Translations under genes and position numbers: made by a program | The notes under the pieces: model-generated | Database searches by the model: none | What the model saw: only the letters and a program-made list of their open reading frames with translations | What the model was told of the DNA's origin: nothing | Assembly: GCA_950295325.1 (NCBI GenBank) | Contig: OX485804.1 | Coordinates: forward strand, 45,198,001 to 45,262,000 | DNA: 64,000 bases | DNA from: Polytrichum commune | Taxonomy: Eukaryota > Streptophyta > Polytrichopsida > Polytrichales > Polytrichaceae | Direction: 5' to 3' | Shown here: positions 10,312-46,948 of the stretch, one piece after another | Layout of the letters: the number at the start of each line of letters is the position of its first letter | Numbering within the stretch: position 1 is the stretch's first letter

Positions 10312-12690
10312 CTATGGTAGTTGTGTGTCTATTGGTAGTGGTTCGTTATTTCCTATCCTCCTTTTGTGTAGAATTATGGACATAGCATATTGTATGGCAA
10401 TGACGTTGATTGCCTCAAATGTGTATTTGATGCTTAGCTTAGGGATTTTGAATGTTGTTTCAATACTTTCCATAAAAGGAATGTGTGTGGTTGCCCTAGC
10501 ACTTGTTGTGATGACTATTAGTGGATCTACCTTCCAGCCTCTGTTGATAACATTGTCTATTAGTGGTTTATATTTTTCTATTGTTTTGGATATAGTTTCA
10601 TATGGTATTCTATCGTTACGGTATGTAAATTCAATGAATTGTATTGTTAGGTTATCATTAGGTATTGTTGGTGGTGGAGATTGATATGGTAGTCCTTTCA
10701 CACATAGAAGGTCTAGTTTGAATTTGACATTGCAGTGGCATCTTTGTTGGCTACACGTGCAAGGTAATAGCCATGAAGGGATAGTATTTTATGGGGGGTC
10801 ATTATTGACTATGCCGACATTCATGAGAACATAGCATCTTGATTTATTTTTATGTCACTATAAGTTTTCTTAATTCCCATAGTGCTTAATTGTGTCTTTT
10901 GGTTCGGAAGGCATGTATGTGGTGCTGTTTGCACTTTAGAAGTACATGTAGCCATGTATCAGGGTATGGGGAGCTACATATGGGGCATGTGATTGATGGA
11001 AAGGCTTCCCTACCAAAGAATAGTTGTTTCATGTCATTCCCCATGTATTCACCGTGTCTCAATTTTAGAAGACATGCTTTTTGAGAGTCAATTATGTTTT
11101 TGTTTGTCCAAATTTTATTTAATAGCTCATTATCTATTTTCTCATTGGCTATCCATTTTATTTATGTTGAGATATAGTATAGGGATCAGTTCTAGATTTA
11201 TATTCTTATCGTATTTTGTGAGATGTTTTTTCTAGAATCTTGATAGGTCCTTTGTCAGGTGTTGTTCCCATTGATGGTCATTCGTCTCTTTGGTAATAGT
11301 ATACTGTTGAGTGGGCAAATTCATGTGGTTGTGAGGCATTGGAGTGTTCTTTGATGTACCTTCTTTAGCAAGTGTGTCAACTTCCTCGTTGCCTCTGATG
11401 TTTGCATGTGCTCTTAGTTTGTATTGTGTTGTGAGTTGAGTTCTTTGTATAAGGAAGTTAACTATTTCTTCTAGGATGGTTTTATCTGGGTGGTTGTTGT
11501 GTAGTGTGGGGTGTTTTATTTGGTTTTTGATCACATATAAACCATTAAGGCAATCTGTGAAGATATGTGTGAGTTCATTTGGGAAGTCTTTATTTATTAT
11601 TGTGAGGGTGTGGTGAATGGCCATTAATTCCGCTCTAAATATGTTTTGTAGGCTTGGTAGCCGTATTGCAAGTTTAATATTTTTTTCGTGATTGTATATA
11701 CCATATCCAACTTCATCCCGTAGCCAGATGTCTCCTATTTTTTTTGGAGGGTGAAAGGATCCATTTGTGTAAAAACAATATTGGGGGGAGGGGGGGGGGG
11801 GGGGGGGGGATTTAAGGGGTGTTTCATTCTCGTGGTTGGGAATCGGTGGGATTGTGTTATGTGGGTGTGTATTTCTTATTGGGTAGGTGAGGGCATTCCA
11901 TGTTTTACTTTTGTTGACTTCTATATTTTGCGAGGTAGGAGGGACAATTTGTGTGATTGTGCGGGTTATGTTAAGGTTGTTGCATATATGTATTTTATTG
12001 TATCTAATTTTTTTGTAGTACCGATACTATTATTTTGGTGATGTATGAGAAGGATTCTTATAGTGAGTGGTTCTATACGTGGCTCGCTGAATTCGTGGTT
12101 TTGTTGGTTCCTCGTATTTAGTGATATTTGTTGGTATGTGAGTAATTACATGTGTGTCTGGGAAGGGGCCTAAACGTGGGGTGAAATTTTGATACCAATT
12201 TATATATGGGATGATGAGTATTGTGGTGATATGTGGGTTGTGTTTAGCTGTTGGTCTAGACCAGTGGATGGTTGTTTGGGCTTCAATTTCATTACGAGGG
12301 TGAACATAACCTATTCATTGTCACTTGTGTGAGAATGCGCTACCAAGAGACCCAAAGATTTTATCTCTAGGAAATGGCGAGAATAACTTTGTTGGATGAG
12401 TTGAGCATGTGACTAGAGAGGAGAAGTAGGAGTGTGTAATTTTAAAGAACGTTGTGATGTAGTCTAGTAGTGCTTTGGGTAAGGCATGGTGTGAGTTTTT
12501 GAGTGGGTCATTTTTTGGGATTTTGTGTTTATATCTTTGATATAGCCAGGTTATTTCAGTTTCAAATGATTGGGTGGGGGGTATTAAGCCATGTGGTTGG
12601 TGTAACATTGGATTGTATTGGTTCCACAACCATACAAGTATGTTGTATACATGGTGATAAGGTGTTTGCATGTTTCGTCATATATGTGGG
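10312..12690 (-). mobile_element. 5'-truncated, decayed LINE (non-LTR retrotransposon)
   Basis: Read on the minus strand, the segment holds in order: a reverse-transcriptase C-terminal piece (about 12671-12321), an RNase H domain (about 11780-11232), a zinc-binding module with CPICSSPYPDTWLHVLLKC (about 11090-10900), and a C-terminal block containing FIEFTYRNDRIPYETI and LIVITTSARATTHIPF (10701-10312). This order is that of plant and algal LINE pol proteins with RNase H. Several frame changes and stops separate the blocks, a long G run interrupts it at about 11780-11810, and the catalytic RT core is missing, so it is dead. Confidence 0.85.
11232..11780 (-). pseudogene. LINE RNase H domain with altered first catalytic residue
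   Basis: The frame reads YTNGSF, then IFRAELMAIHHTL, IFTDCLNGLYVI and KLRAHANIRGNEEVDTLAKEG. Known: RNase H of this type uses four acidic residues (YTDGS, the Glu of AEL, TDSL, and the Asp of the DALA block). Here the first Asp is Asn (AAT), while the Glu and the other two Asp are present. The domain would be expected to be inactive. Confidence 0.8.
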
Positions 12691-14649: not shown

Positions 14650-14663
14650 CACTACAAGAAAAT
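14650..14663 (+). repeat. CACTA left terminal inverted repeat
   Basis: CACTACAAGAAAAT, preceded by target-site bases ATT. It is followed at once by motifs of the type AACGACT and AGTCGTT. Confidence 0.88.
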
Positions 14664-14877
14664 CGACAAAAAACGACTTTGTTTATGATTATTTTTTTAG
14701 TCGTTGAGGACAGAAATGACTATTATTTTTTGTGTTATTACGGACGAGTTGTAACGGACAGTCAGTCGTTTTGGACGTGACGTCGGAACGCGGATGATAT
14801 AGTCATTGAGGCTAGTCGTAAACATGGATGAATGACGTGGCTGACTGTCTATGATGTATGCATTGCGTGGCGTTACG

Positions 14878-15110
14878 TGGCAACACGTGGCGTTACGTTG
14901 TATCCACGTCGACATCCTAGTTGGCACGGGTGCCATGTCACCGAACACGTGGTGTTACGTGGAATCCACGTCGACATCCTAGTTGGCACGGGTGCCATGT
15001 CATCGAACACGTGGCGTTACGTGGCGTTACGTGGACACCACGTCGACGTCCTAATTGGCACGGGTGCCATGTCACCGAACACGCGGCGTCCAGGTCAATT
15101 GGCCACGTCA
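14878..15110. repeat. Subterminal tandem repeats, about 65-75 bp, three units
   Basis: Units begin near 14903, 14967 and 15038. Each contains CCACGTCGAC.TCCTA.TTGG, then GCACGGGTGCCATGTCA, then CGAACACG.GG. Units are spaced by CGTGGCGTTACGTGG. Being GC-rich and next to the TIR, they fit the subterminal repeats that bind TnpA in CACTA elements. Confidence 0.85.
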
Positions 15111-15187
15111 TCCAGCCACGTGGCATGAATGGTATATGTCGGTGTGCGGGTTCACATGTGGGCAAGTGATATATCGCCACGTGTCCA

Positions 15188-15380
15188 TTATGTAGTCGTT
15201 TTGTAGTTTTTATGTAGTCGTTTTGAAGTTCTTATTTTGTTATTTTGTAGTTATTATGTGGTCATTATTTAATCGTTTTATAGTTCCTATTTAATCGTTT
15301 TATAGTTCTTCTTTAATCATTTTCTAGTTCTTATGTAGTCGTTTTCTAGTTCTTAGTTAGTACTTGTGTAGTCATTTTAT
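15188..15380. repeat. Subterminal motif cluster (TAGTCGTTTT)
   Basis: About eight copies of (T)AGTCGTTTT and variants such as TAATCGTTTTATAGTTC lie in both perfect and eroded form between 15190 and 15380. The same AGTCGTT core appears at the other end of the element and in the transposase intron. Confidence 0.7.
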
Positions 15381-16249
15381 GGTTGTTGAACAGTACATAC
15401 CGCAGACGTGAAGTTGAATGGCGTGGCCTTCTGTGTTCTAAATGACTAAGAAGTCACTATTGAACAACTACATTCTAGTTATTAGAGCTCGGGTTAATGC
15501 CATCTTTGAACACATTCAACCATTGTTTACTCTTTTCTTAGTTGTGCATATCATTGCGTAAGCCGAGGTGAGAGGGGTAGCATTGTGAATGCATGCAACC
15601 ACCATTCAAACATTGCCATGCAGCCTCAATATGAAAGCATGAATCATACATGAAACACAACACATCTTTGAATTTGATTGTGGGGTTCCCAACAAAATAT
15701 GTAAGAGTGTTCATATGTGGGTTCTCAGTGTTTAGTGTAGGGAAGACCTTTATCTACTCCATGGTAAGTACGTCTAAGGAAATTCACGCTGCTCTCAAAC
15801 TCCTCTCATTCCAAAGTGTGCTGCCTCCCACTACGTCTTTAATTACCCACTGGTCTCCATCCTCGTGTGGGTAGGCAAGCTTCACATCACCTATATGAGC
15901 AGTTGTCACATCAACTTTATAGCAAAATTGCGGAATCACCTTGATGTGGAACTTGTCCACACCCCCTACGCCACTGATTTTACCGGTTGCCACCTTGCGT
16001 CTCTTGTTTTTCGGACTCATGAGGTGCACACATTGCCCAACATTAAATTGTACCTACACACCATCCTCACAACAATCAAATGCACACCCAATGAACTGTA
16101 GTGATCATTACAACAATGTTTCAGCAATGGATGCCACTACTAGAACATGTATTGCCCAACATTGAACTGCACCCATACACCATCCACAACACAATCAATG
16201 GCATACCTCATACAATGTAAGTACCTCATACAATGCTGAATGACTGCTT

Positions 16250-16312
16250 AAGGACGGCTTAAGGACTACTGAATGACTGCCGAATGACTGCCGAATGACT
16301 GCTCAATGACTT
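16250..16312. repeat. GAATGACT motif cluster
   Basis: Five or six copies of (T/C)GAATGACT.. within about 60 bp, next to the 3' end of the TnpA-like gene. Same motif as the clusters at 19375, 26043, 28000, 28868 and 32318. Confidence 0.75.
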
Positions 16313-16321
16313 CCAAAAAGT

Positions 16322-19300
16322 TCAGGGATGGATTGGACAAACCGGACGTGCAGACAATGTTGCATTGCCTGATGTGTTATCCCCTGTTTTCGCACCCCTT
16401 CCCCGCAATTCCATCCTGTTTGAACCACCAATGTCACCTATCTTACTTGGTGACACGATCTTGGGGTTTTTGCTCTCAGATTCCGGAGATTCTCCCTCCC
16501 CCACTGTCGCAACAAGGGGGGCATCCTCAGCCAACACAACAACTTCTCCGCCCTCTACATGCTCACTCTCCACAATTTGCTCCAGCCCTTTCCCTCCTCC
16601 CAAACTCTCACCTCCACCACTGATGCATTCCCCACTCCCACCTACCTTCTGTGCTTCTCCCCCAGTTGCGTTTTCCACATTCTCTCCCTTCCCCCCCCCT
16701 CTCCACATTCTTCCACCCCACTCCCACCCATTGCAATGTTGGGAGGGCGGGTGCCATGTTCTACAACCCCACCTACAAGAGCTCCAACTTCCTGCCTCCC
16801 CTCATCCGGAGTTATTGGCTGCCCAGTGGCCTCCGCTGCTGCAGCTCGCCTCTTCACACCTCTCTTTGTTGTCGTCCCTTTCTTTGGTGCATTCTCATTT
16901 GCTCGGCCCTTGCTTCCCACCTGGCTGTCCTCTTGAGACATGGTAACCCCTTTCAACTTGGCATCTTTGCTTCTAGTGAACCTAGTATATACCAAGGGCT
17001 CGTGCTCATCTTCGCTACGAGCGTCTGTGTCATCCACCACATCTATTGGCAACGTAATGGAGGTTCCTATGCCAGCCGGGCGGGATTGGGCTTGATTCTC
17101 GCACGTAGACTTAAGAGCGCTTCCATGAATGCCCTCGTTGTTGACTGCCGTGTTGGGGTCGCTCACAATGGTCTGACCCCGTAGTGTAGTAATTAGGCTC
17201 GTCACCATAGTAGCCAAGCTATTCAACGTCAGCGTGTTTGCTTTCAGAGTTTGCTCATTGCTCAACATCACCTCAGACATTTGATGCCTAAACTCGGCCT
17301 GGGTTAGCTCCATGGCAACAATGCATGCTGACATCCTTCTTGACAGGGCTTGCTGTGCACGCCACAAACAAAGACTTCCAACCTTAGAGTGGGATCCAGT
17401 TGGGGTCTGCTTTAGCATTCATTTCAATACAATTTCACCACTACACAATGACACGTGGACTACTGACTGCAGCTACACAATGACTCATTAAGCACTAGGT
17501 GCAACTACCCAATGACTTAAATACAACTGTCAATACATTGCAACAACAACACATACAGCAGGATCTACCATTACATAATGACACATAAAATACATGATAC
17601 GACTAAACAATGACACATAAGACATTGAATTACGACTGCACAATGACTAGTATTGGCTACTGGAAACGACTACACAATGACACATATTGTGTAGGATACA
17701 ACTACAGAATGAAACAAGTATCACTCCATACATACAACTGAACAACAACAAGTAAAATGCACATGCAAACATTTTTTGGATCTTACAGAGGTGCATGCCC
17801 CAGTCTGCTCTGATTCCTGCAGTTCCTCCGCTATTTCCGTAATCCCGGGACTCCTCTGTCTCTTCTTCCTCTGTGATCATGAACACACGCTCAATTGGTG
17901 GCCCACATTTCAAAGGCACCAAGCCCAGTCCAACATAATGGCGAAGGGACACTAGAAAGTCATTACTAATCATTGCATACACAACACTTACCAACTGCGC
18001 TTCTTTCCCAGCTTTGCCACCCCGCCCAACATTGGACTGGTTCTTCACTGACTTCCTTGCATTTGCCATTCTCATTGCCTTTTGCTCCGTTTCTGGTTTG
18101 GACCAGTACTCACAAAGACGTGCCCACTGATCGGGCTCAATGTAAACCGGACATTGTTTTTTTCCACTCAAAAACCATGCCTTCATTTTAGACCTCTCAG
18201 TCTTCATCTGCCTCTTTACTGCATTCTTGAATCCCCTCTCTGATAGTTTGTTCCCCACATATTCAAACTCATTGTCCAGAGCATTCCTTAGTTTCTCAAT
18301 GCTGCAAGGGGATTGGTCCTTCCACTCCACACAACTCACGTCCAATATCCTAGGGATGAGGCTCCTAAGTGCTTCGTCAAATTCATTTTTACCTTCGCAA
18401 CCTCCATCTATGCCTCCACCCGCCTTGACACTCACCTTCTGCGGTTTCTGTCCCACAGCTTTCCTTGCATCCACTGACTCCTCTATTTCCTTCTTATGCG
18501 CTCTCCTCGCTGCCCTTGCCTCACTCTCTGGCTTCAATGTGGGACCCTCGTTATTAGGGGCCGCGGGAGCTTGTTGTGGCTGCATCCAAGGTCCAGGAAA
18601 TTGTTGAGACATCATCCATGGGTTGGGCTGACCCATCATCCACGGGGCCTGTTGCCCCATCATCCACTGTTGTTGTTGTGTGGATGGCGGCGCCATCCAT
18701 GGTTGTTGCATCCAGGAGGAATTGGCCGGGGGTGCGGCTTCAATTTGAGGAGGAGCTGTTGTTTTTGGTTGGGAGACGTGCGCCTTCTACATTGAACCAA
18801 CATTCTCATGAGCTACTTAATGACTGTTTAATGACTCAGAGACTAACCGGCAATAAAGCATGGAAATTACCTTTTTGGCTGGGCTCTTCAATATTTGCCT
18901 TGTGCGCCTCCTTGTTGCACTTGACCCTGGCAGATCCGAGGTGCCTCTTCGTAGTGAGTGAACATCTTCATCTTCTTCCTCATCTGCAAGTGGCTCACCA
19001 ACCACACAATCAGGTGCGTACGCACAGTTGCGGTGGCAATGACGATCATGCAGGGTAGGGAAAAGTCACCGTCCAGAAATGTACCGAAATTGGAGCCACT
19101 AGAATCTGCCGTGCCTGTTCAATCAGAAATTGCAACGTGGTTTAGAGGGGTCGCTTCAAAGGGATCAGCTCTAGTGCTCAGCCAATAAAAGATGTTAGTT
19201 GAAGGCTACAAACCCTTGTATATTGTTCCACCTTTGTGAATGTTGCAATGTCCCGGCTCCATGAATGTTGGAGCTCATGGAAAATGTCAGTTGGTCAACA

Positions 19301-19968
19301 GTCCCTACGCAATATATGATGTAGGGATCATATAGGTGCGGTTGGTCCTAGGATTTAGGGAATGTCTGGGTTTTGAATGACTATGAAATACTACTTAATG
19401 ACTAGTTTGCAACTAGTGGATGACTGTTGAATGACTGCTCACTGAGTGGTGAATGACTGCTGACTAATGCTGAACGACTAGTGAATGACTAGCAAATGAC
19501 TAGCAAATGACTAGTTGGATATGCAGGCAATGACTAGTTAAAGACCCTAAAACCACATGCATAGTCTCAATCCAAAACTTAATATGAAAAATACACACTA
19601 TGATAGTGCTAGTGTAACAACATTGAAAAGCTATAAATCCATGCCAAAAATTGTATCAATGTTGCAATATTGTGGACTTACAAAGCTGTATCTCCATTCC
19701 AAAAATTGTAGACCCCTTCTCCACTCACTTACCCATGTTCACATTTCATATCAACCATCGTCATGGTTGAGGACACTCACCTGGACTGTACTCGTCCTCA
19801 GTCTTTGTGTCTAGTGATTCCTCCGAAAGATGCACCATGTCTTGAAGATCTTCCCGAGCCTCCAAGGTTGCAGTTTTCCGCAGTACTCTGTGGCTGCGGC
19901 GCACTCGTACCCCCGGTGCCGCCTGCCTAGCGATCGAAGCTGACTTCACTGCGCCGAAGCTGTCACGC
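16322..19968 (-). pseudogene. TnpA-like (Transposase_24/Ptta) gene of the CACTA element, one apparent frameshift
   Basis: Minus-strand exons are visible at 19968-19781, 19114-19070, 18983-18871 and from 18786 down past 17992, with matching phases. A long frame then continues to about 17787, and a further exon runs from about 17409 to 16322. The protein has an acidic/Arg-rich start, a Trp/Met/Gln-rich stretch (repeats like PWMMGQ), and then the diagnostic block VYIEPDQWARLCEYWSKP, which matches the Transposase_24 family. A Gly/Glu-rich tail follows. The frame changes at a run of eight C on the plus strand (16692-16699), so the tail is continuous only if one base is lost or gained there. The joins after 17787 do not match in phase and are tentative. 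Expected role: DNA binding to the element's own subterminal repeats. It is transcribed opposite to the transposase. Confidence 0.7.
19375..19512. repeat. GAATGACTAGT motif cluster
   Basis: About ten copies of an 11-14 bp unit, GAATGACTAGT and variants (GCAAATGACTAG, TGAATGACTGC), upstream of the second TnpA exon. This falls in an intron of that gene. Confidence 0.8.
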
Positions 19969-20586
19969 CTGCATTGAGCACAATGGATAGCATGCAACAA
20001 TCTCTCAATAATTGAACGATACAAAATGAACAATACATAATGAACAATACAAAATGACATGTACATCATGACCGATACAAACCTTCATCACACCGCATTC
20101 TCAGCATATCAAAATCACCCCCTAAATCAGCTAAGCATCGCTTGCTTATGAGCAAATAATTGTGTCTTCACTAAGAAAAAAATTAAGACTAAGTTGAATG
20201 TGGGATATTTTTGTAGAATATCCACTTTTCCCTGTCAAAGCATGCCAGTTGCCACATGGGTCAGAAAAGAAATTTAGAGGACTGCAAATTTATGGGGCTT
20301 TAGGACAACAAATTTAGAGGACTGCAAATTTAAATGGCTTGCTCCCTAAGCATAAATACACACCAATCATGCTAGATATTCCATATAACATACAATCTAA
20401 GGTGCTTATAGGTTAATCAACAAATGAATTAACCACTTCGTTTCAATACGAACCTAAACAGAAAAAGACCAGCAAACACTTTGTACACTCAGGAAATGTC
20501 CATCTACAAGAACTGTAAAGCACTACATAGTAATCCCAGAATATACAGAATTGCAAATCTGGAGTATTCAAAAAGCACAAAGAGCT

Positions 20587-20699
20587 TGCCTTCAGTCTAA
20601 ATGCCCATAAGAAGTGACTCTGTTCCAGTCGAGGGATATTTCAATGTTCGAGCCTCCAACTCAGCCATGCTAAATGACTTGACAGCTCTTGCTTCCCAG
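20587..20699 (-). pseudogene. CLPT: ClpT/Clp N-domain exon fragment inside the CACTA element
   Basis: After an acceptor (CATTGCAG) the minus strand reads WEARAVKSFSMAELEARTLK, then YPSTGTESLLMGI, a TAG, and TEGK. This matches the start of the Clp N-domain of the plastid Clp-protease accessory protein ClpT (also found in ClpC). The stop replaces the residue normally between MGI and the EG that follows. No other ClpT exon was found nearby, so this is a single displaced, decaying exon. ClpC is the alternative source. Confidence 0.75.
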
Positions 20700-20989
20700 C
20701 TGCAATGAATAAGAAAGTAGTGAGGCTAATAATGGTTGTGCCCAACTAAGCTAGGTGATCGAGCAGTCTACCAATCCTCAACCAATTGTTTTTAATTATG
20801 AATATATTATAAAGTGTACCAACATAAGTTCTTTGGGAGCTGTAGAACAGATCCATACGTGCATTTACATGCTACTATGATAATGAGAATATCGCATGAG
20901 TCTGGCTTAGACTATTTCTCTGCATTTATCCAATTTTTTTAATTGGAGTAACAACAATCTATAAGATGTCCCATTCTTGTAACGACAGA

Positions 20990-22378
20990 GGGAAAAATAA
21001 TGTACTTACGGATACTATTGAAGGGCAATTGTATCCGAGTTTCTGCACAGCACACCACCAACAAAAAGTCACAATTTGACCAAAATAATGCATTTAGAAT
21101 CTACAGCCTAAACCATTTGTTGACCCTTGATCTACACTCCAATAGGAAGAAGGTGTAATACAGCTTCCACGTTCATGGCTCATTCTTTGTGTGCCCAAAC
21201 CAATTCTGCATAGTATAATTTGAGGGTAATTTAGTTTCAAGAAGTTATACTCCAAGTAATGTAAAGGAAGTACAAAACTTGTATACAGGAGACAGGGTAG
21301 ACAAAGGTAAGTTGGATTGCACATCGGTGGATAAATATGAGTACCCAGGGAAGAAATACATTTTGTTGCCTTGATTTGAATGAGCTATTTTCCCATTTCC
21401 TGTGCATCGTCACAATCACAACGACTGTTAAGTACAGAATCGTAGTAAAATGATGGGAAATCACTCTGCTGGTAGAACACTAACAAAAAACATTTGCTGA
21501 CTCACACTACACCTGCATCACCTACTAGTGTGGGTTACCATTTGGAGTTACTCATTGCTATAACTTTTTAAAAGTTATATCATGTTCCTGGATGTGCAGA
21601 GTCCAGATTAACTATTTAAGTTATATGTGTAAAAACTTATATACTTGTTATGAAGTTATAACATTGTGTAAATCCAGATGATAACCCACACTAATAGGCG
21701 ATACCAGTGTACTTGTGTATATTTAAATCACAACTACAGTGACACACTTCCAAAATTCCAAGAGTATGATCAAGAACATAATTGCAGAGTCTTGATTGTT
21801 GATTTACATAATTAAAAGATTTTTTGGCCCGCTTTTGCTGTGCTAATGAAGAGTAGAAGTGTAAATCTAAAAAGCAGGAACAGGAAAAGGAAAAGGACAC
21901 GCACCAAGATCAACATCTCGAAATGGGCTACCACTTGCAAAGATGATATCATGTCCGGCGTACTGAAAAGCTTCTTTCGCTGTGCATTCAGCTGCAAGTC
22001 ACTCCAAAGGTATCAAGATCAAATTCCATAATGCAACTCCTTGCACTAAATCAAACCAACAAACATACTTCAGATGCTATAATCCAGATATAATCAAATA
22101 AGGAGATGCCAAGGTATAGAAGGAACACCGTTTGTAGTAGGGTGGCAGCCCAAGACCAGCTAGGACATTGCCCCTAGAACCTGTATACATTCATAAAGTA
22201 ACAGGTTCCTTAAATAGATTTTGTAAGTTTGAACTGGTAGATATCTGAAACTTACGCCAATAATGCCAGCAGAAGCCCACAGTGCAACCAAATAAGGACA
22301 AAGGGAAAAATAATGTATTTACGGATACTATTGAAGGGCAATTGTATCTGAGTTTCTGCACAGCACACCACCTTTGTA
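20990..22378 (-). repeat. Direct repeat, about 67 bp, at 20990-21056 and 22312-22378
   Basis: Both copies read GTACTTACGGATACTATTGA-like sequence followed by AGGGCAATTGTATC.GAGTTT and CTGCACAGCACACCACC. In reverse each copy looks like a 33-nt exon (peptide KLGYNCPSIVS in the first copy) between TGTGCTGTGCAG and GTAAGTAC. Only about two base differences separate them. The source gene is unknown. Confidence 0.7.
21905..21991 (-). pseudogene. NADP-malic enzyme exon fragment inside the CACTA element
   Basis: An 87-nt open exon, bounded by TTGCAG and GTGCGTG, encodes ECTAKEAFQYAGHDIIFASG followed by SPFRDVDL. Known: plant and animal malic enzymes carry (A/S)ECTAEEAF..........FASGSPF..V.. in the NADP-binding half of the protein. 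The exon is open and its sites are intact, but no neighbouring malic enzyme exon could be placed with confidence. It is therefore a displaced fragment, not a gene. Confidence 0.85.
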
Positions 22379-22648
22379 GACAATCAAAAGGACAACTTTC
22401 TAATGCAAATTGCTTCCGAAAATGAAGAGAGCACTCACAAGAAGTGTCTAACAAGTGGGACCTCTTTAGAACAGGCTCATTTTCAAAGAGGTTATTTAAG
22501 AAATTCAATGCATGCTTAATGTATTTATACATTAATCTAAATACCTACAGAAACAAGTGTATTCAATTTTACTATCTGCATACCAATTCACTCAGTACAA
22601 TTCTGTTACTCAATTACATTAGATAATCTGAAATACAGACAATGGTAC

Positions 22649-22795
22649 CTGCGAGATAAGCGGCTCCGCTTCAGTTCGTTTCACGAAATGAATGGAATTG
22701 CGTAATAAGGAAGTTGATTGATCACCCAAGAGCACCTCCCCAATATCATCCAGCACTCTCACTTGAATATATGGATCTTTTGGTGGTGAAGCATC
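22649..22795 (-). pseudogene. PSF1: GINS subunit PSF1 exon fragment inside the CACTA element
   Basis: A 147-nt open exon between ATATTCAG and GTACC encodes 49 residues: DASPPKDPYIQVRVLDDIGE, then VLLGDQSTSLLRNSIHF, then VKRTEAEPLISQ. This is the C-terminal B-domain of PSF1 (GINS1), with the PP..PYI.VRVL and HF..R...EPLI pattern. PSF1 is part of the GINS complex of the replicative CMG helicase. The exon has no stop or frameshift. The helical A-domain exons and the short last exon were not found in the element. The fragment is well preserved, so capture is either recent or the copy is under constraint. Confidence 0.88.
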
Positions 22796-23169
22796 CTGAA
22801 TATAAATATTTATCAGAACAAATGAAGAATATATCCTATGATTAGTTCCACTCATTGTGAACTTACCGCCCACTTAAGGCCACTTTACACTATGGCCAAA
22901 GGCTGTGAGGGCCCTTGAAACTCATCCAAAGGCTGTATGATGGTAAAATGTTGGAACCTAAATTTCCTTCTCCACTCTGAGAGCATGAAATGTACAGTTC
23001 TGAATGCCAAATCAATTCAAGTCCGTAACATTCAGAAAAATGTAAAGCAATTCTAAGGGCTTACTTAAGAACCCAAATATGACCAAGGTGTAAGTGGAGT
23101 TTCAGTATTTGTATATCTTATAAGTGGAGTATTTTCCATTCAAATATGTAGATGTTTTGAAGATCCCTT

Positions 23170-23580
23170 GAAGATCCCTTGAAAGATTCTAAACAACACA
23201 CAGCATAAAGATGTTGTGTGATGATCAAAGAACAAACACCATAAAGACCACACGATGTTTGAAAGAGATTGGAGTACTACGTCCTCAAATTCTATCATCT
23301 ACTCCACACTCGATAGGGAACATCGCAATTGGGAGGACCTAGTTGTTCAGTTACGAAATCACCAAACATGCACTTCCATTAAACACAGGTGAGTACATCC
23401 TAGCAGAACCGACTTTCGAGACAATTTTTGCTGACACTTCATCCTAGATTTTGAAAAGCAACACAAGTTTTGTTGTGTAGATCTAATCTGTAGAAGTTGA
23501 AGAACATGAAAAACAAACTGAATAACACCCGCACACCTGTAGATCCCTTGAAGATCCAAAAAGCCCATTCTGGGCCTCAA
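23170..23580 (-). repeat. Dispersed repeat family R1, longest copy
   Basis: The reverse strand contains AGGTGTGCGGGTGTTATTCA, TTTTTCATGTTCTTCAACTT, GAAGTGCATGTTTGGTGATT and TCCAATCTCTTTCAAACATC. Copies lie at 24330-24598 (same strand), 36695-36800 and 47010-47345 (opposite strand). No protein domain was found; structure is unknown (possibly an LTR or a large MITE). Confidence 0.75.
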
Positions 23581-24179
23581 GGTGTCTTACGGGGTTTAGA
23601 GCCTACTTGATATATTTAGCTAAATGTGCCAAAGTGACCCTATCTAAAATTATTTAATTCATCATTTGCATTAGTACAATGCAGCATGCATATATGTAAA
23701 TTAAATTACAGAGAGATATGAACTCTTATTAGTGACCTAGACTCAAATACATATCACATGTGTTTAGCTAATCACCATTGTCACATATGGCTTTTATTTT
23801 CACTTCCTCATTTTATCAGGTTGTACTAAAATGTGGATTCAATATGCTAGACTAAATAAAATATCATCTCAATGCTTGGTTGGGGACTGGGGTTTGTACA
23901 AATTGTCACTCGGATAAACACAACCCCCTGGTCCTTGGTTAATGCAAAGCTGCTAAAGTATTAGATTCATCTTACTTCGCTTGGTTAAATCTGTATCAGA
24001 TACTTGAACTTTGACCCAAGGTCTTTCAGTTGCCCAATTCAATATGGGTTTGATGGCAATCAAATTGCTCAAACATTGTCCAAGGATGCAGTTAAACATT
24101 CTATAAACTAAGCACAATCTTCTGGCAATTGTTAAACATTTTGATTGCCTCCAAACCCATTGCTCTTGATGAATGCTCC

Positions 24180-24308
24180 ATCAACAAGCAGAATGATGAG
24201 TTTTTTTGAGGAAGATCATACAGATGTGTGCTTCTTAGTAGACAACAAGCAGTTCAGATGTCATCGATTTTTATTGGGTGCTCGATCTGAATACTTGAAG
24301 GCTAGAAC
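24180..24308 (+). pseudogene. BTB/POZ domain exon fragment inside the CACTA element
   Basis: Plus-strand reading gives FFEEDHTDVCFLVDNKQFRC and then HRFLLGARSEYLKAR, the first strand-helix unit of a BTB domain (D(V/I).F.V....F..H...L..RS.YF.A). It most resembles the second BTB of ABTB1-type proteins. A possible acceptor (CAAGCAG) lies upstream, but with it a run of seven T breaks the frame. The coding match stops at about 24308, and R1 repeat sequence takes over. The strand is opposite to the other captured exons, so it came in separately. Confidence 0.7.
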
Positions 24309-24329
24309 AATAGGGAACAATATTGGGTG

Positions 24330-24598
24330 CTCGATAGGGAACATCACAATTGGGAGGACCTAGTTGTTCAGTTACAAAATCACCAAACATGCGCTTCCAT
24401 TAAACACAGCTGAGTACATCCTAGCAGAACCGACTTTCGAGACAATTTTTGCTGACACTTCATCCTAGATTTTGAAAAGCAACACAAGTTTTGTTGTGTA
24501 GATATAATCTGTAAAAGTTGAAGAACATGAAAAACGAACTGAATAACACCCGCACACCTTATACATTGATCTCGCGCAGCAACACCGCTCAGAAACAA
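24330..24598 (-). repeat. Dispersed repeat family R1, second copy
   Basis: Nearly identical over about 185 bp to 23359-23540, offset by about 1,020 bp (AGCAGAACCGACTTTCGAGA, TGCTGACACTTCATCCTAGA). It abuts the BTB exon fragment. Confidence 0.8.
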
Positions 24599-25351
24599 TC
24601 ATCACAAGATGGAGTGTCAACACTCACCGCATCATGAGTACTGGAGCCAGCCAGCGCCGAACTCTGCCGGCAGCGAGCTTGAAGGCTACAAAGTTAAGGA
24701 GAAAGATGAAGCCCAACACAGGCTGCCCTATCTCCTAGAAGGCTCCAAGGCATGCTAGTATAGATCCAGGTAATGCCAAAATGTATTGAATCTCGATCCC
24801 ACATACCATTGCCGATCGTGTAAGTCCCTGTTTCTGCCGAACTTCAACAATTCAAATCTGCAGCCAGAATTAGGTAAAGACTTCAACTTACGAGCTTCAT
24901 TCAAGCACACCATATCCATGTTTAACTCCACTAGTTGATTTAATCGAGAAGCTCAGTTGACATAGAAAGACAGGAATGGAGTCTAACAGGATACCATAGA
25001 AGTAACCGGAAAACCCACCTTGTGGCAGGAAGGGAGCGATTGACTGGCCCGTAACATGGAAACCCTACAAATTGAGATTCCAGCCATCTTGCAACTTCTC
25101 AAAGAGACACGAATGGCAAGAAACTAAGCCACAGGGAGGTGATTTGAGGAGCTCATCAGAAACCCCACAATCACACCCTACAACTGATAATTTACAACCC
25201 CTTTGCATCACAAACCCTTACAACCACACCCTTAGCTACACAATCTAGAAACCTTGAACCTCAGCATGGGAGATGGGTACCTTACCAGGAGCGGAGAGCA
25301 CAATGAGAGAGGAGCGCAGATCGAAACGGAGAGAATGAAGGGGGGACTTCG

Positions 25352-25968
25352 TCAACAGTCTGTGACCCCTGCAGACCCACAGCGAAGTGGACTGCATCCA
25401 CACCTTTCACATGAACGGCTCCGATGTCGCCACGTGGCGCGTAAAGAACCCTCCCAACCTGCATCCAACGCCCAAAACCCCAACGTGTGCTTCTCCCGAA
25501 TTTTCGGAGCTGTGGGGCCGCGGAGCATCTGATGCAGGTTTGTGTTGAGCAGTGCCGGATTTGGTGGCGCCAATGTAGCTGACATCGGACATTTGGAGGC
25601 TATTCATCCCCATTAGTGATTTGGACACAACATTACAACACTTAACAGGTAAGAAACACTTACAGACTCACTGCAGCTTGTTGCATGGGCTTCATAATCT
25701 CCTTGATTTTCGCGACGTGTTTGTCGCGTTCCATCTCATAGGAGCACCTGTCGAGGTCCCCATCGTCATCTTCAATGGGACCGCTAACAAGAGGTTGGCC
25801 ACGCTTCTCCTTGGTCTTCGGAGGTCTGAGAAGTTCGGTCACGGAGTCCATATCCTCAGCCTTATACTTCAAAGATTCGCACAAACTACCTCTATACTCT
25901 CTACAGATAAGACAACAATTTGAGTCTCTTGCCTTGAGCCCAGACGTGCAATACGCCATGGACTGCAA
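25352..25968 (-). other. Two unassigned coding-like exons in the CACTA element
   Basis: The minus strand from about 25968 (after ATTGCAG) reads RDSNCCLICREYRGSLCESL, KYKAEDMDSVTELLRPP and CSYEMERDKHVAKIKEIMKP, ending near a GTGAGT at about 25660. A second open piece, 25628-25407, reads MSDVSYIGATKSGTAQHKPA and SSENSGEAHVGVLGVG. Codon-like character and splice sites suggest real exons. I do not recognise the family. They could belong to an element-encoded accessory protein or to another captured gene. Confidence 0.45.
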
Positions 25969-26042
25969 TGTATTTAGGGGCGGGGACCTAACGGATACAA
26001 TCCGACGCGCCAGGGCTTCACTATGTAGACTGTTCCAATTTG

Positions 26043-26112
26043 AATAATGACTAGTGAATGACTCGTGAATGACTAGTGAATGACTTTTGGATGACTACTT
26101 AATGACTAGTGA
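26043..26112. repeat. GAATGACTAGT motif cluster flanking the satellite array (left)
   Basis: Five copies of GAATGACTAGT and close variants, preceded by GTTCCAATTTGAATAATGAC. A similar phrase, GTTCCAATTTGAAGAACGAT, precedes the cluster on the right side of the array (about 27990), so the array is bounded by related sequence. Confidence 0.8.
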
Positions 26113-26119
26113 ATGAAAA

Positions 26120-27760
26120 TAGGCATACGAAACAAGAATGGATTTCATCACACTTACGTATAAGTGCGGTATATGAATCGGGTGGAATCGATTATGATAT
26201 ATTAAAGGGTCCACTAAAATTAGGCAAACAGGGTGAAAAATGTTGTTTATTTCAGGAACATGGTAAAAAGGGGTTGGAATTGGAATTTACTTAGGGCCTG
26301 ATTGAAATTACTTTTACAAAACACGAACAGGTTTGGACACACTTACGTATAAGTGCGGTGGATGGGTGGGGTGGAATCGATTATGATGATCTATTTAAGG
26401 GTCCACTAAAATTAGGCAAACAAGGTGAAAATGTTGTCTATTTCAGGAACAGGGTAAAAAGGGGTTGGATTTGAAATTTACTTAGGGCCTGATTGAAATT
26501 ACTTTTACAAAACACGAACGGGTTTGGACACACTTACGTATAAGTGCGGTGGATTGGTGGGGTGGAATCGTGTGAGAAATGTTGTCTATTTCAGGGTCGG
26601 AAAACAGGGTAAAAAGGGGTCGTAATTTGCATATACTTAGGGCCCGATTGAAAGTGGGTATAGGAAACAAGAGTGTGTTTGGACACACTTATGTATAAGT
26701 GCAGTGGATGGGTGGGGTGGAATCGCTTAGGGTCTATTGAGGGCATGGATAAAAATAGGTGAAGGGTGTGAAAAACATTATCTATTTCGGTCTATTTCAG
26801 GATTAGGGTAGAAAGGGGTCCGAATTTGGATTTACTTAGGGCCCGATTGAAATTACTTTTACAAAACAAGAATGGGGTTGGACACAATTACGTATAAGTG
26901 CAGTGGATGGGTGGGGTGGAATCGATTATGATGTATTTAGGGAATGGATAAAAATAGGCAAACAGGGTGAAAAGTGATGTCTATTTCAGGGTTGAGGGTA
27001 AAAAGTGGGTTGGAATTTGGATTTATTTAGGGCCCAATTGAAAGTAGGGATACGAAAAAAGAATGGGGTTAATGACACTTAGGTAGAAGTGAGGTGAACG
27101 GGTGGGGTGGATTTGATCTGGATGTATTTAGGGGTGGAATCAAATTAGGTAAATAGTGTGATCTATTTCAGGGTTGAGGGTAAAAAGGGGTCAGTTTACA
27201 GGGTAAAAAGGGGTCGTAATTTGCATTTACTCAGGGGCCGAATGAAAGTAGGTATAGGAAAGAAGAACGGGTTTGGACACACTTAGGTATAAGAGCATCC
27301 TCACTCGATCTAGGTAAAGCTCACTGCAAACCAAAACCTATCTTTTGACTGACCTAAAATTAGAAACTTAAATTACCATCATTAGAAGCACACCTAAATA
27401 AACGTGAGATATTTCTCAAGAAAAAAGAATTGTAAAAATTTGACGTAGGTGAAATCCCTCATTGAAAACACCACATTTTCAAATTTTAGAGGGAGTGTAC
27501 CAAATCTTGCTTTAAAATGGAAAGATCCTCCCACACTCCCTCCAAATTTTTGACATTTAGAGGGAGTGTGGGAGGATCTGTCCATTTTTAAGCAAGATTT
27601 GGTGCACTCCCTCTAAATTTTGAGCAATTTTAAGCAAGATAGGTCTTGGTTTGCAGTGAGCTTTACCTAGATCGACTGAGGATGCTCTAAGTGCAGTGGA
27701 TGGGTGGGGTTGGATGGATTATGATGTATGTAGGGACCGACAAAAAATAGTGAAAAAGGG
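26120..27760. repeat. Satellite-like tandem array, about seven units of 155-204 bp
   Basis: The phrase CACTTACGTATAAGTGCGGT, or a close variant, recurs at 26151, 26340, 26531, 26686, 26884, 27076 and 27280. Units also share GGTGGGGTGGAATCGATTAT, CTATTTCAGG and TTACTTAGGGCC.GATTGAAA. The last unit is split by the MITE at 27293-27687. No coding capacity. The array is inside the CACTA element. Confidence 0.9.
27293..27687. mobile_element. Tourist/Harbinger-type MITE, 395 bp
   Basis: Ends are GAGCATCCTCACTCGATCTA and its near-perfect inverse (…TAGATCGACTGAGGATGCTC). The inverted repeat extends over roughly 50 bp, through AAAGCTCACTGCAAACCAA. A second inverted pair (CCTCCCACACTCCCTC) lies near the centre. 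The target duplication TAA flanks both sides (27290-27292, 27688-27690), and removing the element rejoins a satellite unit. The TIR start GAGCATC and TAA duplication fit PIF/Harbinger (Tourist). Confidence 0.92.
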
Positions 27761-27999
27761 TGATCTATTTAAGGGTTGGATGAATGCGGGAGGTAGGAAA
27801 TAGTGAATTGGATGTTGGGGAGATTTAGGTATGAAGGAGAAAGGTTGCTATTGTGGCGGATTGGGTTTGGTTTCATTCGTGTAGGAGCAAACTTTGAATG
27901 GAATGGAACGGAACGTAACGTAACAGATTGGGGTGTGAATGGGTTACCCCGGTTAAGCTAGGGTTTCCATACGCAGAGCGTTCCAATTTGAAGAACGAT

Positions 28000-29082
28000 T
28001 AAGTAACGACTAGTGAGTTACTCTTGAGCGACTGGGAAGTCAATGTTGATTGACTAGGGAATGACTACTGAATGACAAGCTTATGACCAATTTATGAAAA
28101 CTGAAAGACTAGTGGTAATCGAACCCCTGATCAGACGCCACAACCCTATAAGCCCGTGAAATATGTTCATTCTGTTGCGTCAAACCTCTGGCCCAAGACA
28201 TGTGCATAGCCATCTTTATTATTTGGAGGATAATTTCGCCAGGTTAGAGCTAGGAGTGGAACTTATCAGCATGGTCGCAATATATCGTCCTATGTGCTGA
28301 AAATATACCAACTATGTACCCAACAACATATTCGTCCCCACAAACGTCTACCACGTATTGAATGGAGGGACCAACCCTCGGCGCATTCTTAATAGTCCAA
28401 TCAGCTACATGTTGCCATGCTCCAAGTTTCCTTTATTCAAATGGGGTCTACTCTATAATATTCCTTAGCATGATTGGCAAATATCATGCAGTATAGAACT
28501 TCAGCTTGTGATTTCTCAAACTCAACCGGGTCATATGTAACCAACTATCGGTCCCCCCCCCCAACAATTAGTGAAGAATGCTCACTATTGAGGAGTGTGG
28601 ACTCACCTGATGTCCATTTTGTGCATAACCAGTAGAGATCCTAGTGCACAACTACTTGAGATCGTGGTGTTTCCAAGCCCACATGGTTACGTGTAGATGT
28701 CCTTGCACTTTTTTCTTTAATGGTTTGAGATATATTTCAGGAGATTTATGTAGTATGAGCATAGAACCTACAACTTAATTCAAGGGATGCAATCGTCTCA
28801 CAGTAATTTGTGATTGGCAAACCACAAGAAGGGGGCATATACCCTCTGACCAACTAGTCAAGGTTGCTGACTAGTGAATGACTAATAAATGACACGGGGA
28901 TGACTAGTGCATGATTGCCCACATGTTTAGATATGTCTGGTTACATGTGAACGACTAGTGTGTGAGTACTCTACGACCAGTTTATGACAGGTTGTCAACC
29001 AAGAAATGGGTGGATACAACCATGTTTAGGGGCCTAATATTAAAGTACCTAATATGTGCATAGTGGCAAGCCTGCAGGTTAC
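28000..29082. promoter_or_regulatory. Presumed transposase 5' region with two GAATGACTAGT clusters
   Basis: Clusters of the element's motif lie at 28000-28085 and 28868-28985, just upstream of the transposase start. Between them is a gene-free stretch with a run of ten C at 28552-28561. Motif placement suggests binding by the TnpA-like protein; this is inference. Confidence 0.45.
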
Positions 29083-32000
29083 ATGGACCATCGAAGACTC
29101 CCTCTTAGTGACAGGAGACGGCAACAACTTCGAGACGACCATCTGTGGAGGAGGGAGCAAGAGAGGGCCAGATTGTATGGCTTGAGACGAATTCATTGCC
29201 CATGCTCCAAATGCAAGGGACGGGTTCAATGCTCTATTGCAAAAGTGAAGGACCATCTAATCCGAAATGGGAGGGAACCCAGCTTCAGAGTGTGGAGGGG
29301 GCCTGGAGAGAGGGACGGATCCGATGAGGAGTGGGAACATGAGCTTAGTAGACCCCCAGGAGCACATGACGGACACATTGACGAAGGGTTGGATATGCAC
29401 GCGATGGTTGAGGACGCATTCACAAAAATTGATGAGGCACCAGCCCCCCCCCCACTACATTGGAAGATCAGTTGGAGGACATAGTAATAGGTGCCTTCAC
29501 AGTCGTCGATGAGCAGGCCCATGATGACCACGAATTTTCTGACGATGAGCTAGAGGACGAGGTTTTGGGGGAAATTGGAGGTGGCATTGCAGAGGAAGAC
29601 AATTATGGTGATCCGCACGAGTTGGAAACAACAATTGAGGAGTTGTACCATGGAGCCAAGTCTTCGGTGTTGGCCGCCACGATATTGATAATGACATTGT
29701 GTACGGTCCATGGTGTGAGCAACAAGTTTGCGGACCAGCTATTCACCCTCTTCCGCGAACACCTACTACCCAGTGAGAATATGCTACCCAAAAACCTCCA
29801 TGCTGCAAAAGGCTTGATTCGGAAATTAGGATTGAATTACAATACAATTCATGCATGCCAAGCAGGTTGTGTAATATTTAGAGGGCAATATGAAGGTGCA
29901 ACTCATTGTCCAAAGTGTAAGAAACCACGTTACAAAGACGAGGCCAATAAACGGAGGCCTTGGAAAGTACTTAGACACTTTCCCCTAATTCCAAGACTAA
30001 GGCGTATGTTCCGTACACCCACAATATCTGAACTCATGGTGTGGCATGCAAAGAACACAAGCAGTGATGGATTGGTAAGACATCCTTGTGATTCAAAGGC
30101 ATGGAATCACGTACATGAAAATGTAGATTATAGTTTTGGCCAGGAAGACCGCAACATTCACTTAGGAATGGCGGCCGATGGAGTAAACCCTTTCAAGTTG
30201 CAACGTACGAGTTGGAGTACATGGCCGGTAATGTTGTTAAATTACAACATACCCCCATGGTTGACTACGAAGAAATTTTTCATAATGTTGGCGTTGCTAA
30301 TCCCGGGAAAACAGTCTGTGACATCTCAATTCTTCGATGTGTACTTGGAACCATTGGTAGAGGAGTTCATCCAACTATGGAAGGGTGTGGATGCTTATGA
30401 TGTGCTCAAAGAGGTGGGGTCAAGGGCCTTCAAACTTAGAGCAATTTTGTTGTGGACCATACACGATTTTCCTGGTTATGGGACAGTTGCAGGTGTTGCA
30501 CATCAGGGCTATGCGGCATGTCCTGTGTGTGGGCCTCATTTTAAAGGTGAACATTCTATCGAACTTGGAAAGCAAACCTATACAGACACAAGGAGGTGGC
30601 TTGCCCATGACGATCCGTGGAGATCACCGGAAATGAAAGACCACTTCAATGGACGTATAGAAGTTCGCGGTAAGCCCAATGTGGTTAATGCAAATGAGCA
30701 AATGCAGCGAGCCACCGAGTATCAAACCTGGTTGGATGCAGGCAACAAAGAGGGTGCCGTTGGAGACCCCTCCAAAACACACGGCGTGAAAAGGAGGAGC
30801 ATCTTACACAACCTGCCTTATTGGAAGGTATATGTTCCAGCTGCTTTGACTCAATTGTTGTATGCATCCTCACAGGGAACGACATGTCCAACTTAAAAAA
30901 TACTAAAAAACGACTGAATGTGCTCATAGATGGCATAGACAAGTGCACGTGTCAGAAGCATTTAGTTGTTGAGTAGTAGCAGAATAGTCGTTTACCATAC
31001 ACATGGGCACATGTCCATTAACATAGTCGTTTGAAAGTCGTTTACAATACATATGTTCAACCAAGGAAAATGACTACGAGAAACTACACGTCTGGAAACG
31101 TGGCAACACAGACGAGAGTATATGCTCCCACGACCCATCCATTAGTACAGTCGGTGCGTTACAATACGTCCACAATGACACAAAATTAGTAGTCGTTGTA
31201 GACACAACGACGTAAACGCCAGTCGTAATCGTAGTCGTTATCGGACGAGTTTCCGCAGGGTCCTTTCACTAACTAGTATATGACTATATTGCCAGGATCT
31301 GCTCATACGATACACCCTGGATGTTATGCATTGTGAGGCAAACTTTTCGAAGAACATATTGAAGACCGTCACAGGACACAAGGACACAGTAAAGGTCCGC
31401 CGCGACCTGCAACGCAGAGGCATCAGGCCGCATTTGTGGCTCATTCCCCACCCAAGGAAAAATGGGAAAATGTTGAAACCGGCGGCCCCGTATGTGTTGA
31501 CAAGCGAAGAGTTCGAAGTATTTAGCAGTGTTATCGAGAACCTGAAGACACCATCAGGACATGTTTCCAACATGGCTCAGTACGTACGGAAGAGGACGTT
31601 CGGGGGTTTAAAGTCGCATGACTACCATGTGCTTATGCAGCAAATCATGCCACTAGCACTACGAGGTCTTTTACAACCTGGTCCACGAATGGCGGTGATG
31701 AGGATTTCGAAAGTGTTCCGAAGGATATGTGGGAGTGTTTGGAACCCATTGGAGTTTGAAGCTCTTCAGGCGGACGTCGCACGGAGCATGGCACTTCTGG
31801 AGATTCATTTCCCTCCCTCATTTTTTGACATTATGACGCATTTATTGTATCACCTTGTCGATGAATTGGACATGTGTGGTCCCGTCTCCACAAGGTGGAT
31901 GTATCCTATTGAAAGATACATGAAAACCCTAAAGCATTATGTTCGGAACATGGCAACACCGGAGGCATGCATGGCGGAGGGTTACGCGAGGGATGAATGC

Positions 32001-33216
32001 CTAGGTTTCATCACGGAATATCTACACAAGTTTGAAGTGGTTGACCGTCGAGTATGGGATGCGGATGAGGAGTACGGAGATGCAGAGGAGGTGCTAGAAG
32101 GGGCAGGAACAAAGTACTTGATGACACCAACATTGAGAGATGTAGCCCACCAATATGCTTTGACGAATTTATCCCTCATGGCACCTTTGCAAAGGTGAGT
32201 GTGACCGTGTTTTTTTTTATTGCACATTATTGTGTCAATGTGCCCTGTTATTTTGCAAAAATATGAACGCCTCTGTAAACCCCTACTGCCTGAGCGGGCG
32301 GATGAGTCCGTCATGAATAATGAATGACTAGTGAATGACTAATGAGCGACTAGTGAGCGACTCGTGAATGACTATTGAATGACTTATGAGCGACTAGTTA
32401 GCGAGTGGTGAAGGACTAGTGAATGACTTATGAGGGACTATTGAGCGACTGGTGTATGACTATTGAATGACTGGTTGGATGTACAGGCAATGGAAAGTGG
32501 AACAGGAGGCGAATCCCAACATATCGGCTTTTGGAAACTGGATTAAAGACGTAGTACGCAATCACCCTGTTGACCCGAACGATGAGGATGACATGGATAG
32601 GGTTCTGATGTGCAGCAGACCGTCACAGTTAGCCACACGATATACGAGGATGAAGGCATATGGAAACCACTTTCGGGTGGAGGACCAACAGTCCAGGACA
32701 TTAAAAACCTACGATAGCGGAGTTGCCTCTGTGTTCCACATGCCCTGCGAGGGTTTGGAGGAGGTGACATTGAATTATGTGGGAGTACTAAAGGATATAC
32801 TAAAATTGAACTATGGGCCAATTCGTACACCTGTCATACTTCTTAGGTGCGAGTGGATGAAGCAATTTGACAATCGGGGCAACCCAACGTATGTAAGAGA
32901 TGAGGCTGGATTCATGGTCGTGAATTTCCGCCACAGGGTTCCTCAGATGTTGGATCCGTTCATATTTCCCAGCCAAGCGACTCAAGTATTTTGGTCAGAC
33001 GAAGTGCGGAAACCGGGGTGGAAAGTAGTTTTGGCAAAGGAGGCACGCTCCCAAAGACATGAACAAAGCACACAAGATGTCTTCATGACCACCACCAAAG
33101 AAACGGATGGCATACAGTTGGCAAACCATGTGCCTCCCCCGCCCACCACAGCGTCATTGGTGGGAGCCATAGAACTATCAGATTCCGATAACTCATTAGC
33201 ACTAGCTAAATTTTAG
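29083..33216 (+). CDS. CACTA transposase (tnp2, DUF4218, DUF4216), one homopolymer frame break
   Basis: Exons 29083-30827, 31296-32194 and 32487-33216 join in phase (LPYWK|DLLIRYTLDVMH; PLQ R|QWKVEQ) and give about 1,120 residues, the usual size. Domains in order: an N-terminal transposase-associated zinc region (RRIHCPCSKCKGR), an acidic linker, tnp2 core, DUF4218 (GLKSHDYHVLMQQIMPLALR, PIERYMKTLKHYVRN) and DUF4216. Candidate catalytic and metal-site motifs are MAADGVNPF, LLWTIHDFPGYG, ACPVC and LDVMHCEAN. The frame breaks once, in a run of ten C at 29444-29453; one more C would restore it. I chose the ATG at 29083 (MDHRRLPLSD) because a splice-like CTGCAG precedes it; an upstream ATG at 29056 is possible. 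Everything else is open, so the copy may be active or very young. Confidence 0.88.
30828..31295. repeat. Transposase intron dense in AGTCGTT motifs
   Basis: This 468-bp intron has GT-AG ends. It carries about ten copies of (T)AGTCGTT or its inverse AACGACT, for instance AGTCGTTTACCATAC, AGTCGTTTGAAAGTCGTTTA and CAGTCGTAATCGTAGTCGTT. The same core lies beside both element ends. Confidence 0.75.
32318..32475. repeat. GAATGACTAGT motif cluster in the last transposase intron
   Basis: At least ten units of GAATGACTAGT, GAGCGACTAGT and GAATGACTATT fill most of the intron between DUF4218 and DUF4216, ending a few bases before the acceptor GTACAG. Confidence 0.85.
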
Positions 33217-33299
33217 GTGTTTGTTTTTACTGAAGCCTAGCTGGGGTCACAAATGTCCTTAGTGGTTGTATTTAACAATATTGTGACTGAACTACAACT

Positions 33300-34122
33300 C
33301 CACTATGACTAAGACGTCCACGTCATCGAGTACGTGGCATGATAAATGAAAAAGATTGTTCTTGCCCAGTGCCCTCCATTGAACACATGATTTCAGACCT
33401 GCATCATATGTGCACATTGGCAATGTATATCTTCCATATATGTACTTGCAATCTGTTGGAGAGTCATGGTTAAGTATGGGTTAGTGAAGGGCAACACAGA
33501 AATGACTGCACAGTTGCTATGTGAGAGTTGTTTTGGCACGTCACACCGGCATGGATGAGTTGGACGATGAATAACTAACCTTTCACCAAAAGTTGCACAT
33601 GTCATCCACGAGTCATTTCAGTAACTGAACAATGACTAAACGCTTGTACACGTCATCCCAATCTTGGCGGGCGTGTGAGTCAGTCATCGAGCTCGAAATT
33701 CGTAGTCATTCTTTTGACAGGTCACTATTATCGAGAATAATTTTCACTCAATTAATCCCTAATTTCCACGTCATTAGAGGGATGTAAGTGCCACATCACA
33801 TATTTGTGTTATTTTTAAATAATAGTAAACACGTAGTCGTTAAATCACGACCAGATAATGACTAACAGTCAGCCACGTCAAGATATTCTATCCACGTCAT
33901 ACACGAATGGATGTAGTGGATGAAATTTGTTAGACATAAAATGAGTATGTTGTGCGGTCGTCAACAGAGTTCATCTTTAGTCATTTAAATGACTAAACAA
34001 TGACTCACATGTTAGCCACGTCACACAAGGTGACTTCATCAGGCATCACAGTCGTTTAATGAGTTGTTTAGGACACTGAGTCATTGATACCCTGGTTGGA
34101 ATGGACAAGGTTTGTTGTAGTG
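33300..34122. repeat. CACTA right subterminal region and terminal repeat
   Basis: Motifs of the types AATGACTAA, AGTCGTTAAA and CCACGTCA recur on both strands up to the right end, which reads GGTTTGTTGTAGTG and is followed by the target bases ATT. The motif content mirrors the left end. Confidence 0.8.
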
Positions 34123-46902: not shown

Positions 46903-46948
46903 AGCCAGTTTGAAGAAGCAGATTCAGAAGAAGAAATCATCGGAGCTG
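46862..46948 (+). other. Possible first exon of a divergent gene (no later exon found)
   Basis: Plus-strand ATG at 46862 or 46868 opens MGSDDACEAVAIASLKKQIQ followed by KKKSSEL, ending at a good donor (GAGCTG|GTATGTG). This Lys-rich coiled-coil-like start could be a real first exon. It overlaps the first 35-41 nt of the minus-strand PDZ gene. R1 repeat sequence follows from 47010, and no second exon was recognised. It may be a gene broken by the insertion, or antisense chance. Confidence 0.3.

Follow-up and report, generated by a model that had tools for sequence, protein, structure and literature searches.

The element at 14650-34122 of the analysed window, the whole stretch of 64,000 nucleotides from Polytrichum commune, whose genes mark it as plant nuclear DNA, is, with the gene pieces captured in it, real, and elements of this kind have been described before in other plants. 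We consider it likely that the carrier is a CACTA transposon of about 19.5 kb with these borders and, as part of the same explanation, we judge it probable that its internal block, lying between the element's own motif arrays, gathered fragments from four host genes or more, of which at least two are proposed to have been added separately. The capture of host exons is supported by the homology of the pieces, by the borders of the element, and by a second copy of the junction of one piece, that encoding a BTB domain, in another contig. The sequence may also bear a trace of how two of them, those of malic enzyme and BTB, came to be inserted. The element and its coding regions are as follows.

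14650-34122, no strand assigned: CACTA (En/Spm, DTC) element, 19,473 bp, with ATT/ATT flanks, terminal inverted repeats and target-site duplication
29053-33216, plus strand: transposase gene, from Pfam domains and inferred introns
29436-30896, plus strand: TNP2 domain (Transposase_21), Pfam 9.5e-61
31284-32198, plus strand: DUF4218, Pfam 3.8e-32
32467-33216, plus strand: DUF4216, Pfam 2e-11
16642-18786, minus strand: second CACTA reading frames, a TnpA/ORF2-like region of at least two broken frames with stops between

The ends at 14650 and 34122 read CACTACAAGAAA and CACTACAACAAA, the element having CACTACAAGAAAATCG at its left end and, in reverse complement, CACTACAACAAACC at its right. The CACTA...TAGTG terminal inverted repeats match at 11 of 12 positions, which is a short match, and the target-site duplication is 3 bp long (ATT/ATT). 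Among the candidate end pairs with CACT(A/G) starts and ends, a start below 20000 and an end above 33000, this pair came second, with the same score as the third, and it was eighth among all terminal inverted repeat pairs listed. The first-ranked pair, 19596-50394, scored one point higher; this pair would enclose an FtsZ gene, and the closest internal motif hit lies 6 kb from its left end, with none near its right end. We prefer 14650/34122 because of the end sequences, the ATT/ATT flanks, the enclosed transposase, and the distribution of an 11-mer subterminal-type motif, for which 18 of the 19 hits in the window fall inside these borders and 1 outside. The same motif, which was chosen from the element itself, gave 0-1 hits in 20 mononucleotide shuffles. 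All hits inside the element are at least 1.6 kb from the two ends, and a related array with an 11-bp period, too diverged to yield motif hits, was observed close to the left end at 15186-15372.

The TNP2-type transposase by which the CACTA family is recognized was found in the element (PF02992, together with DUF4218 and DUF4216), encoded by a gene with two inferred introns. The claim of an earlier note that the element keeps its transposase is thus borne out for the domains but not for the reading frame, which shifts within a C10 run at 29444-29453. This frame change could be genuine or a sequencing error, and it makes the autonomy of the element doubtful. In the second coding region, Transposase_24 (Ptta/En/Spm) was weakly matched at 17647-18786 on the minus strand (E=0.0025, 18.4 bits against a cutoff of 28.7). 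Internal motif arrays were observed at 16.2, 19.4, 26.0, 28.0, 28.9 and 32.3 kb; an array of the 11-bp subterminal-type motif (32313-32475) sits in the second inferred intron of the transposase gene, and the segment 30878-31010, in the first inferred intron, resembles part of the left subterminal region (15423-15555; 68% match). The element also contains a tandem array of about 190-bp units at 26110-27300 and a nested hairpin repeat at 27292-27688 with 53-nt arms (96%).

Several other features were observed in the window outside the element. Pieces of an FtsZ gene (37031-40410, minus strand; FtsZ_C 8e-30, GTPase domain 9.4e-9) lie about 3 kb from the right end of the element. A second CACTA element of 5.2 kb at 52500-57685, with a terminal inverted repeat match of 22/24 and the target-site duplication TTA, is flanked by pieces of DUF4216 (52130-52501, minus strand) and DUF4218 (58283-58870, minus strand), and it appears to split the transposase gene of another CACTA. 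In addition, an RNase H domain at 11232-12026 (minus strand, 4.2e-11) probably derives from a non-LTR retrotransposon.

The four unrelated gene fragments that the earlier note had described within the CACTA element were all recovered there by Pfam and PDB homology, and the BTB fragment was indeed on the opposite strand to the other three.

22649-22795, minus strand: PSF1 (GINS1) C-terminal-domain exon, 147 nt, AG/GT, open
21905-21991, minus strand: malic enzyme NAD-binding-domain exon, 87 nt, AG/GT, open
20590-20699, minus strand: ClpT (Clp protease accessory) exon fragment with AG acceptor and an inferred 3' edge
24162-24306, plus strand: BTB/POZ exon fragment, Pfam 3.8e-7, breaking mid-exon at 24306
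24307-24329, plus strand: filler at the BTB junction, 23 nt, read directly

The PSF1 piece matched the Pfam family PSF1_C (E=1.9e-24, 85 bits) and solved PSF1 chains in the PDB (E=2.8e-6). A total of 20 relatives were found in the protein database; all are short frames (53-83 residues), and identity reaches 86% in the best. In three of these relatives (P0001-P0003), similarity to the piece stops no more than 2 residues from the splice edges in the window, and their extra Q and V fit the residues encoded by the AG and GT themselves; a fourth (P0004), judged by eye, shows the same edge pattern. A fifth (P0005) continues past the piece as SQ-GLMEEFIE, which is taken to be the next PSF1 exon, and its GLMEEF motif was not found in the CACTA element. 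The malic enzyme piece matched Malic_M in Pfam at E=4.1e-5 with 23.5 bits, exactly the curated cutoff, and the PDB weakly (E=0.011). As had been proposed, both pieces are open and keep AG/GT. For the third piece, whose 33 residues gave no reported Pfam family, the best phmmer matches in the PDB were 4y0b, "Double Clp-N motif protein" (E=3e-11), and 4y0c, "Clp protease-related protein At4g12060" (E=4.3e-11), with 33/33 residues aligned in each; both are double Clp-N proteins, and the piece is taken as ClpT. Its acceptor AG is at 20701-20700, the single stop noted earlier is an in-frame TAG at 20599-20597, and a GC at 20589 after this TAG is a possible non-canonical donor.

In the BTB piece (30.7 bits in Pfam; best PDB match 9.8e-5), the reading frame shifts at a run of T near 24200. 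Three relatives of this piece were found in public contigs (P0023, P0024 and P0025). Two of them, P0024 and P0025, read on uninterrupted beyond position 24306 (KAR-FSRTTGFREG), and therefore the break of the BTB piece is mid-exon. The idea that each piece is an exon with splice sites or a domain edge thus held for PSF1, for malic enzyme and for the acceptor of ClpT; for BTB, whose right end has no splice edge, a whole or domain-edge exon was rejected. After KAR, both the window and P0023 switch to TIGNNIGCSIGNITIGRT, a translation of the filler and of the beginning of a 230-bp repeat, and across this junction (24199-24360) 53 of 54 residues agree. The P0023 contig (1327 bp, source "lgn") keeps one open frame across the T run at which the frame shifts in the window, and it contains extra upstream exon sequence absent from the window. 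That a contig differing in both respects has the same junction argues against an assembly artefact. P0023 could be a further copy of the element, or it could stem from a relative that has this insertion too.

The earlier note held that no other exon of these genes is present. For BTB, the flanking parts of P0023-P0025 had no credible match in the window (best E 0.72), and for PSF1 and malic enzyme a few known motifs, a weak test that included no ClpT motif, had no match inside the element. In the 19500-26000 region, 68 frames have a length of 45 residues or more, two of them containing the PSF1 and BTB pieces; in a Pfam scan of 12 frames other than the four pieces, none reached a cutoff, the best being JmjC_2 (14.4 bits against 22). 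The comparison of GC between the captured pieces and the block was uninformative. One further candidate in this region was considered.

19782-19968, minus strand: open stretch of 62 residues with AG/GT flanks, 87% identical to the protein-database frame P0021

This stretch was not accepted as an exon, as its resemblance to P0021 does not stop at either of the putative splice sites. A longer conserved open stretch at 19764-20084 is 84% identical to P0021 over 98 residues.

Two pairs of non-tandem direct repeats were observed in the 19.5-26 kb block.

20980-21059, plus strand: 80-bp direct repeat, left copy, 76/80 identical to the right copy
22293-22372, plus strand: 80-bp direct repeat, right copy, 76/80 identical to the left copy
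23309-23538, plus strand: 230-bp direct repeat, left copy, 223/230 identical to the right copy
24330-24559, plus strand: 230-bp direct repeat, right copy, 223/230 identical to the left copy

The 80-bp pair brackets 1,233 bp including the malic enzyme exon, and the 230-bp pair brackets 791 bp including the BTB piece. At thresholds of at least 88% identity, a gap of more than 100 bp and a distance of less than 4 kb, these are the only pairs of at least 50 bp in the window outside the array at 26.2-27.7 kb, and the same search found no bracketing repeat for PSF1 or ClpT. When the four pieces were placed at random, 11.7% of trials put exactly one piece into each of the two bracketed intervals; placement alone thus gives the bracketing no statistical significance. 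The 230-bp unit belongs to a dispersed repeat with copies at 23218-23538 inside the element and at 36710-36803 and 47012-47351 outside; in the last of these, the 74% match over 326 bp is at 47012-47322 on the minus strand, and one of the copies lies near a minus-strand open frame at 46543-46923. The right 230-bp copy appears to be a local duplication, because it lacks the 91 bases with which the dispersed repeat opens at 23218-23538 and resembles the left copy much more than the distant one. The two copies differ by 5% in the 80-bp pair and by 3% in the 230-bp pair. At the edge of the BTB piece, the words ATAGGGAACA and ATTGGGTGCTCGAT recur in the 23-nt filler or across its edge, and nearby, as template switching would give.

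To describe these observations, we propose that the malic enzyme and BTB pieces, at least, were added separately, since each is enclosed by direct repeats, copies of one sequence that it would have split, and since words are repeated at the BTB junction. Each piece would have been copied as filler DNA when a staggered double-strand break within the element was repaired, for example after an aborted excision, and the collage would then have been copied by later transposition or descent. As read from the sequence, the 80- and 230-bp repeats and the junction words suggest such stepwise filling of staggered breaks. In rice, the excision sites of DNA transposons contained foreign filler in 58 of 94 cases, with fillers of 1-123 bp (PMC4423477), and duplications from the repair of adjacent nicks are common but rare above about 125 bp (PMC7971508). 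The inserts of 0.8-1.2 kb described here exceed the documented rice fillers, and the 230-bp repeat exceeds the range of about 125 bp. Two further observations stand against our explanation as a whole, namely the short match of the terminal inverted repeats and the upstream exon sequence of P0023 that is absent from the window.

A broader form of this proposal is put forward only tentatively and is, in our judgement, doubtful: CACTA elements might gain host exons singly by filler-copying repair, each exon being left with a datable repeat scar and the pieces later serving as cassette exons. At an assumed substitution rate of 1.3e-8 per site per year, and with the same low confidence, the 80- and 230-bp scars might date two distinct events, at very roughly 2 and 1.2 million years. 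Among the open-licence papers listed for CACTA elements in combination with filler, breaks, direct repeats or captured exons, no title or abstract beginning describes per-exon repeat scars inside a CACTA.

The main competitor for the stepwise filling of breaks is hybrid-element formation, or transduplication, in which two neighbouring CACTA copies are mobilized together with the host DNA between them, so that the block would arise in one or a few steps. Studies have described this model for the Pack-CACTA of Arabidopsis and have examined it in rice and maize (PMC13317346, PMC8903248), and the six internal motif arrays between 16.2 and 32.3 kb could be remnants of joined element ends. However, it predicts neither the junction words nor direct repeats of 80 and 230 bp that flank one piece each, and simple scans found no pair of terminal inverted repeats with a target-site duplication around the block; we therefore regard it as improbable.

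The block might otherwise be a separate gene-carrying transposon nested in the CACTA, as maize Helitrons and rice Pack-MULEs often bear gene fragments (PMC4290129). In simple scans of the block, neither type was supported: the five candidate terminal inverted repeat pairs were only 10-11 nt long and none had a target-site duplication of 2, 3 or 8-11 bp, and no CTRR-plus-hairpin end of a Helitron was found at 19.0-27.0 kb, although such scans can miss degenerate ends. A nested origin thus seems very improbable. It is still harder to believe that the pieces are relics of ordinary host genes hit by transposon insertions, with no exon captured at all. Two pieces do have intact exon edges, but four unrelated genes are represented at single-exon scale within 3.7 kb, the BTB piece is on the opposite strand and is broken mid-exon against a repeat, its junction recurs in another contig, and all of the pieces lie inside CACTA ends flanked by a target-site duplication.

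Capture of host exons by a CACTA element, the reading that we favour, is consistent with reports of gene-fragment capture by CACTA in soybean (PMC1947982), wheat (PMC4290129), Chenopodium (PMC8978399), and maize and rice (PMC8903248), and the subject was reviewed in 2026 (PMC13317346). The soybean element Tgm-Express1 similarly contains exon and intron fragments from five genes unrelated to one another, including malate dehydrogenase and CDC2, whereas it is 5.7 kb long and composed of gene fragments, the absence of a transposase being inferred (Zabala and Vodkin 2007, PMC1947982). On wheat chromosome 3B, 140 capture events, mostly of fragments, were reported, with 17 captured genes possibly reflecting exon shuffling; however, the genes there are flanked by two elements of the same family, whereas the pieces in the present study are inside one element with a transposase (PMC4290129). 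CACTA-like elements of Chenopodium have captured AP2 or Neprosin pieces of exon size upstream of a transposase-associated coding region and contain satellite arrays inside one element, but they carry fragments of one gene family per element instead of the four genes observed here (PMC8978399). Tgmt* of soybean belongs to the same size class (20.5 kb) and has imperfect 13-bp ends, a 3-bp target-site duplication and a transposase gene, although the excerpt of its description mentions no captured host genes (PMC2613891). The label "Pack-CACTA-like" given earlier is apt for the captured host coding DNA, the CACTACAA ends, the target-site duplication and the combination of several loci in one element, which in maize is commonest among Pack-CACTA; by the published definition, however, Pack-TYPE elements are non-autonomous and those matching a transposase are set apart (PMC8903248), and the present element, which has a transposase, is not a Pack-CACTA in that sense.

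The exons of Tgm-Express1 have been demonstrated to be spliced into chimeric RNAs in soybean (PMC1947982). By analogy with this precedent, splicing might include the PSF1, malic enzyme and ClpT pieces as cassette exons, because both splice sites are retained in the first two and the acceptor in ClpT, and all three are on one strand, which is that of the possible second CACTA gene (minus), upstream of which they lie in sense orientation. From sequence alone, the pieces are predicted to be passengers.

The acquisition of gene pieces by DNA transposons is only partly understood. If the per-exon repeat scars are true, the steps of capture could be ordered and dated, and the filling of breaks during repair could be told from hybrid-element formation; otherwise, the element would be one more example of exon shuffling by plant CACTA transposons.
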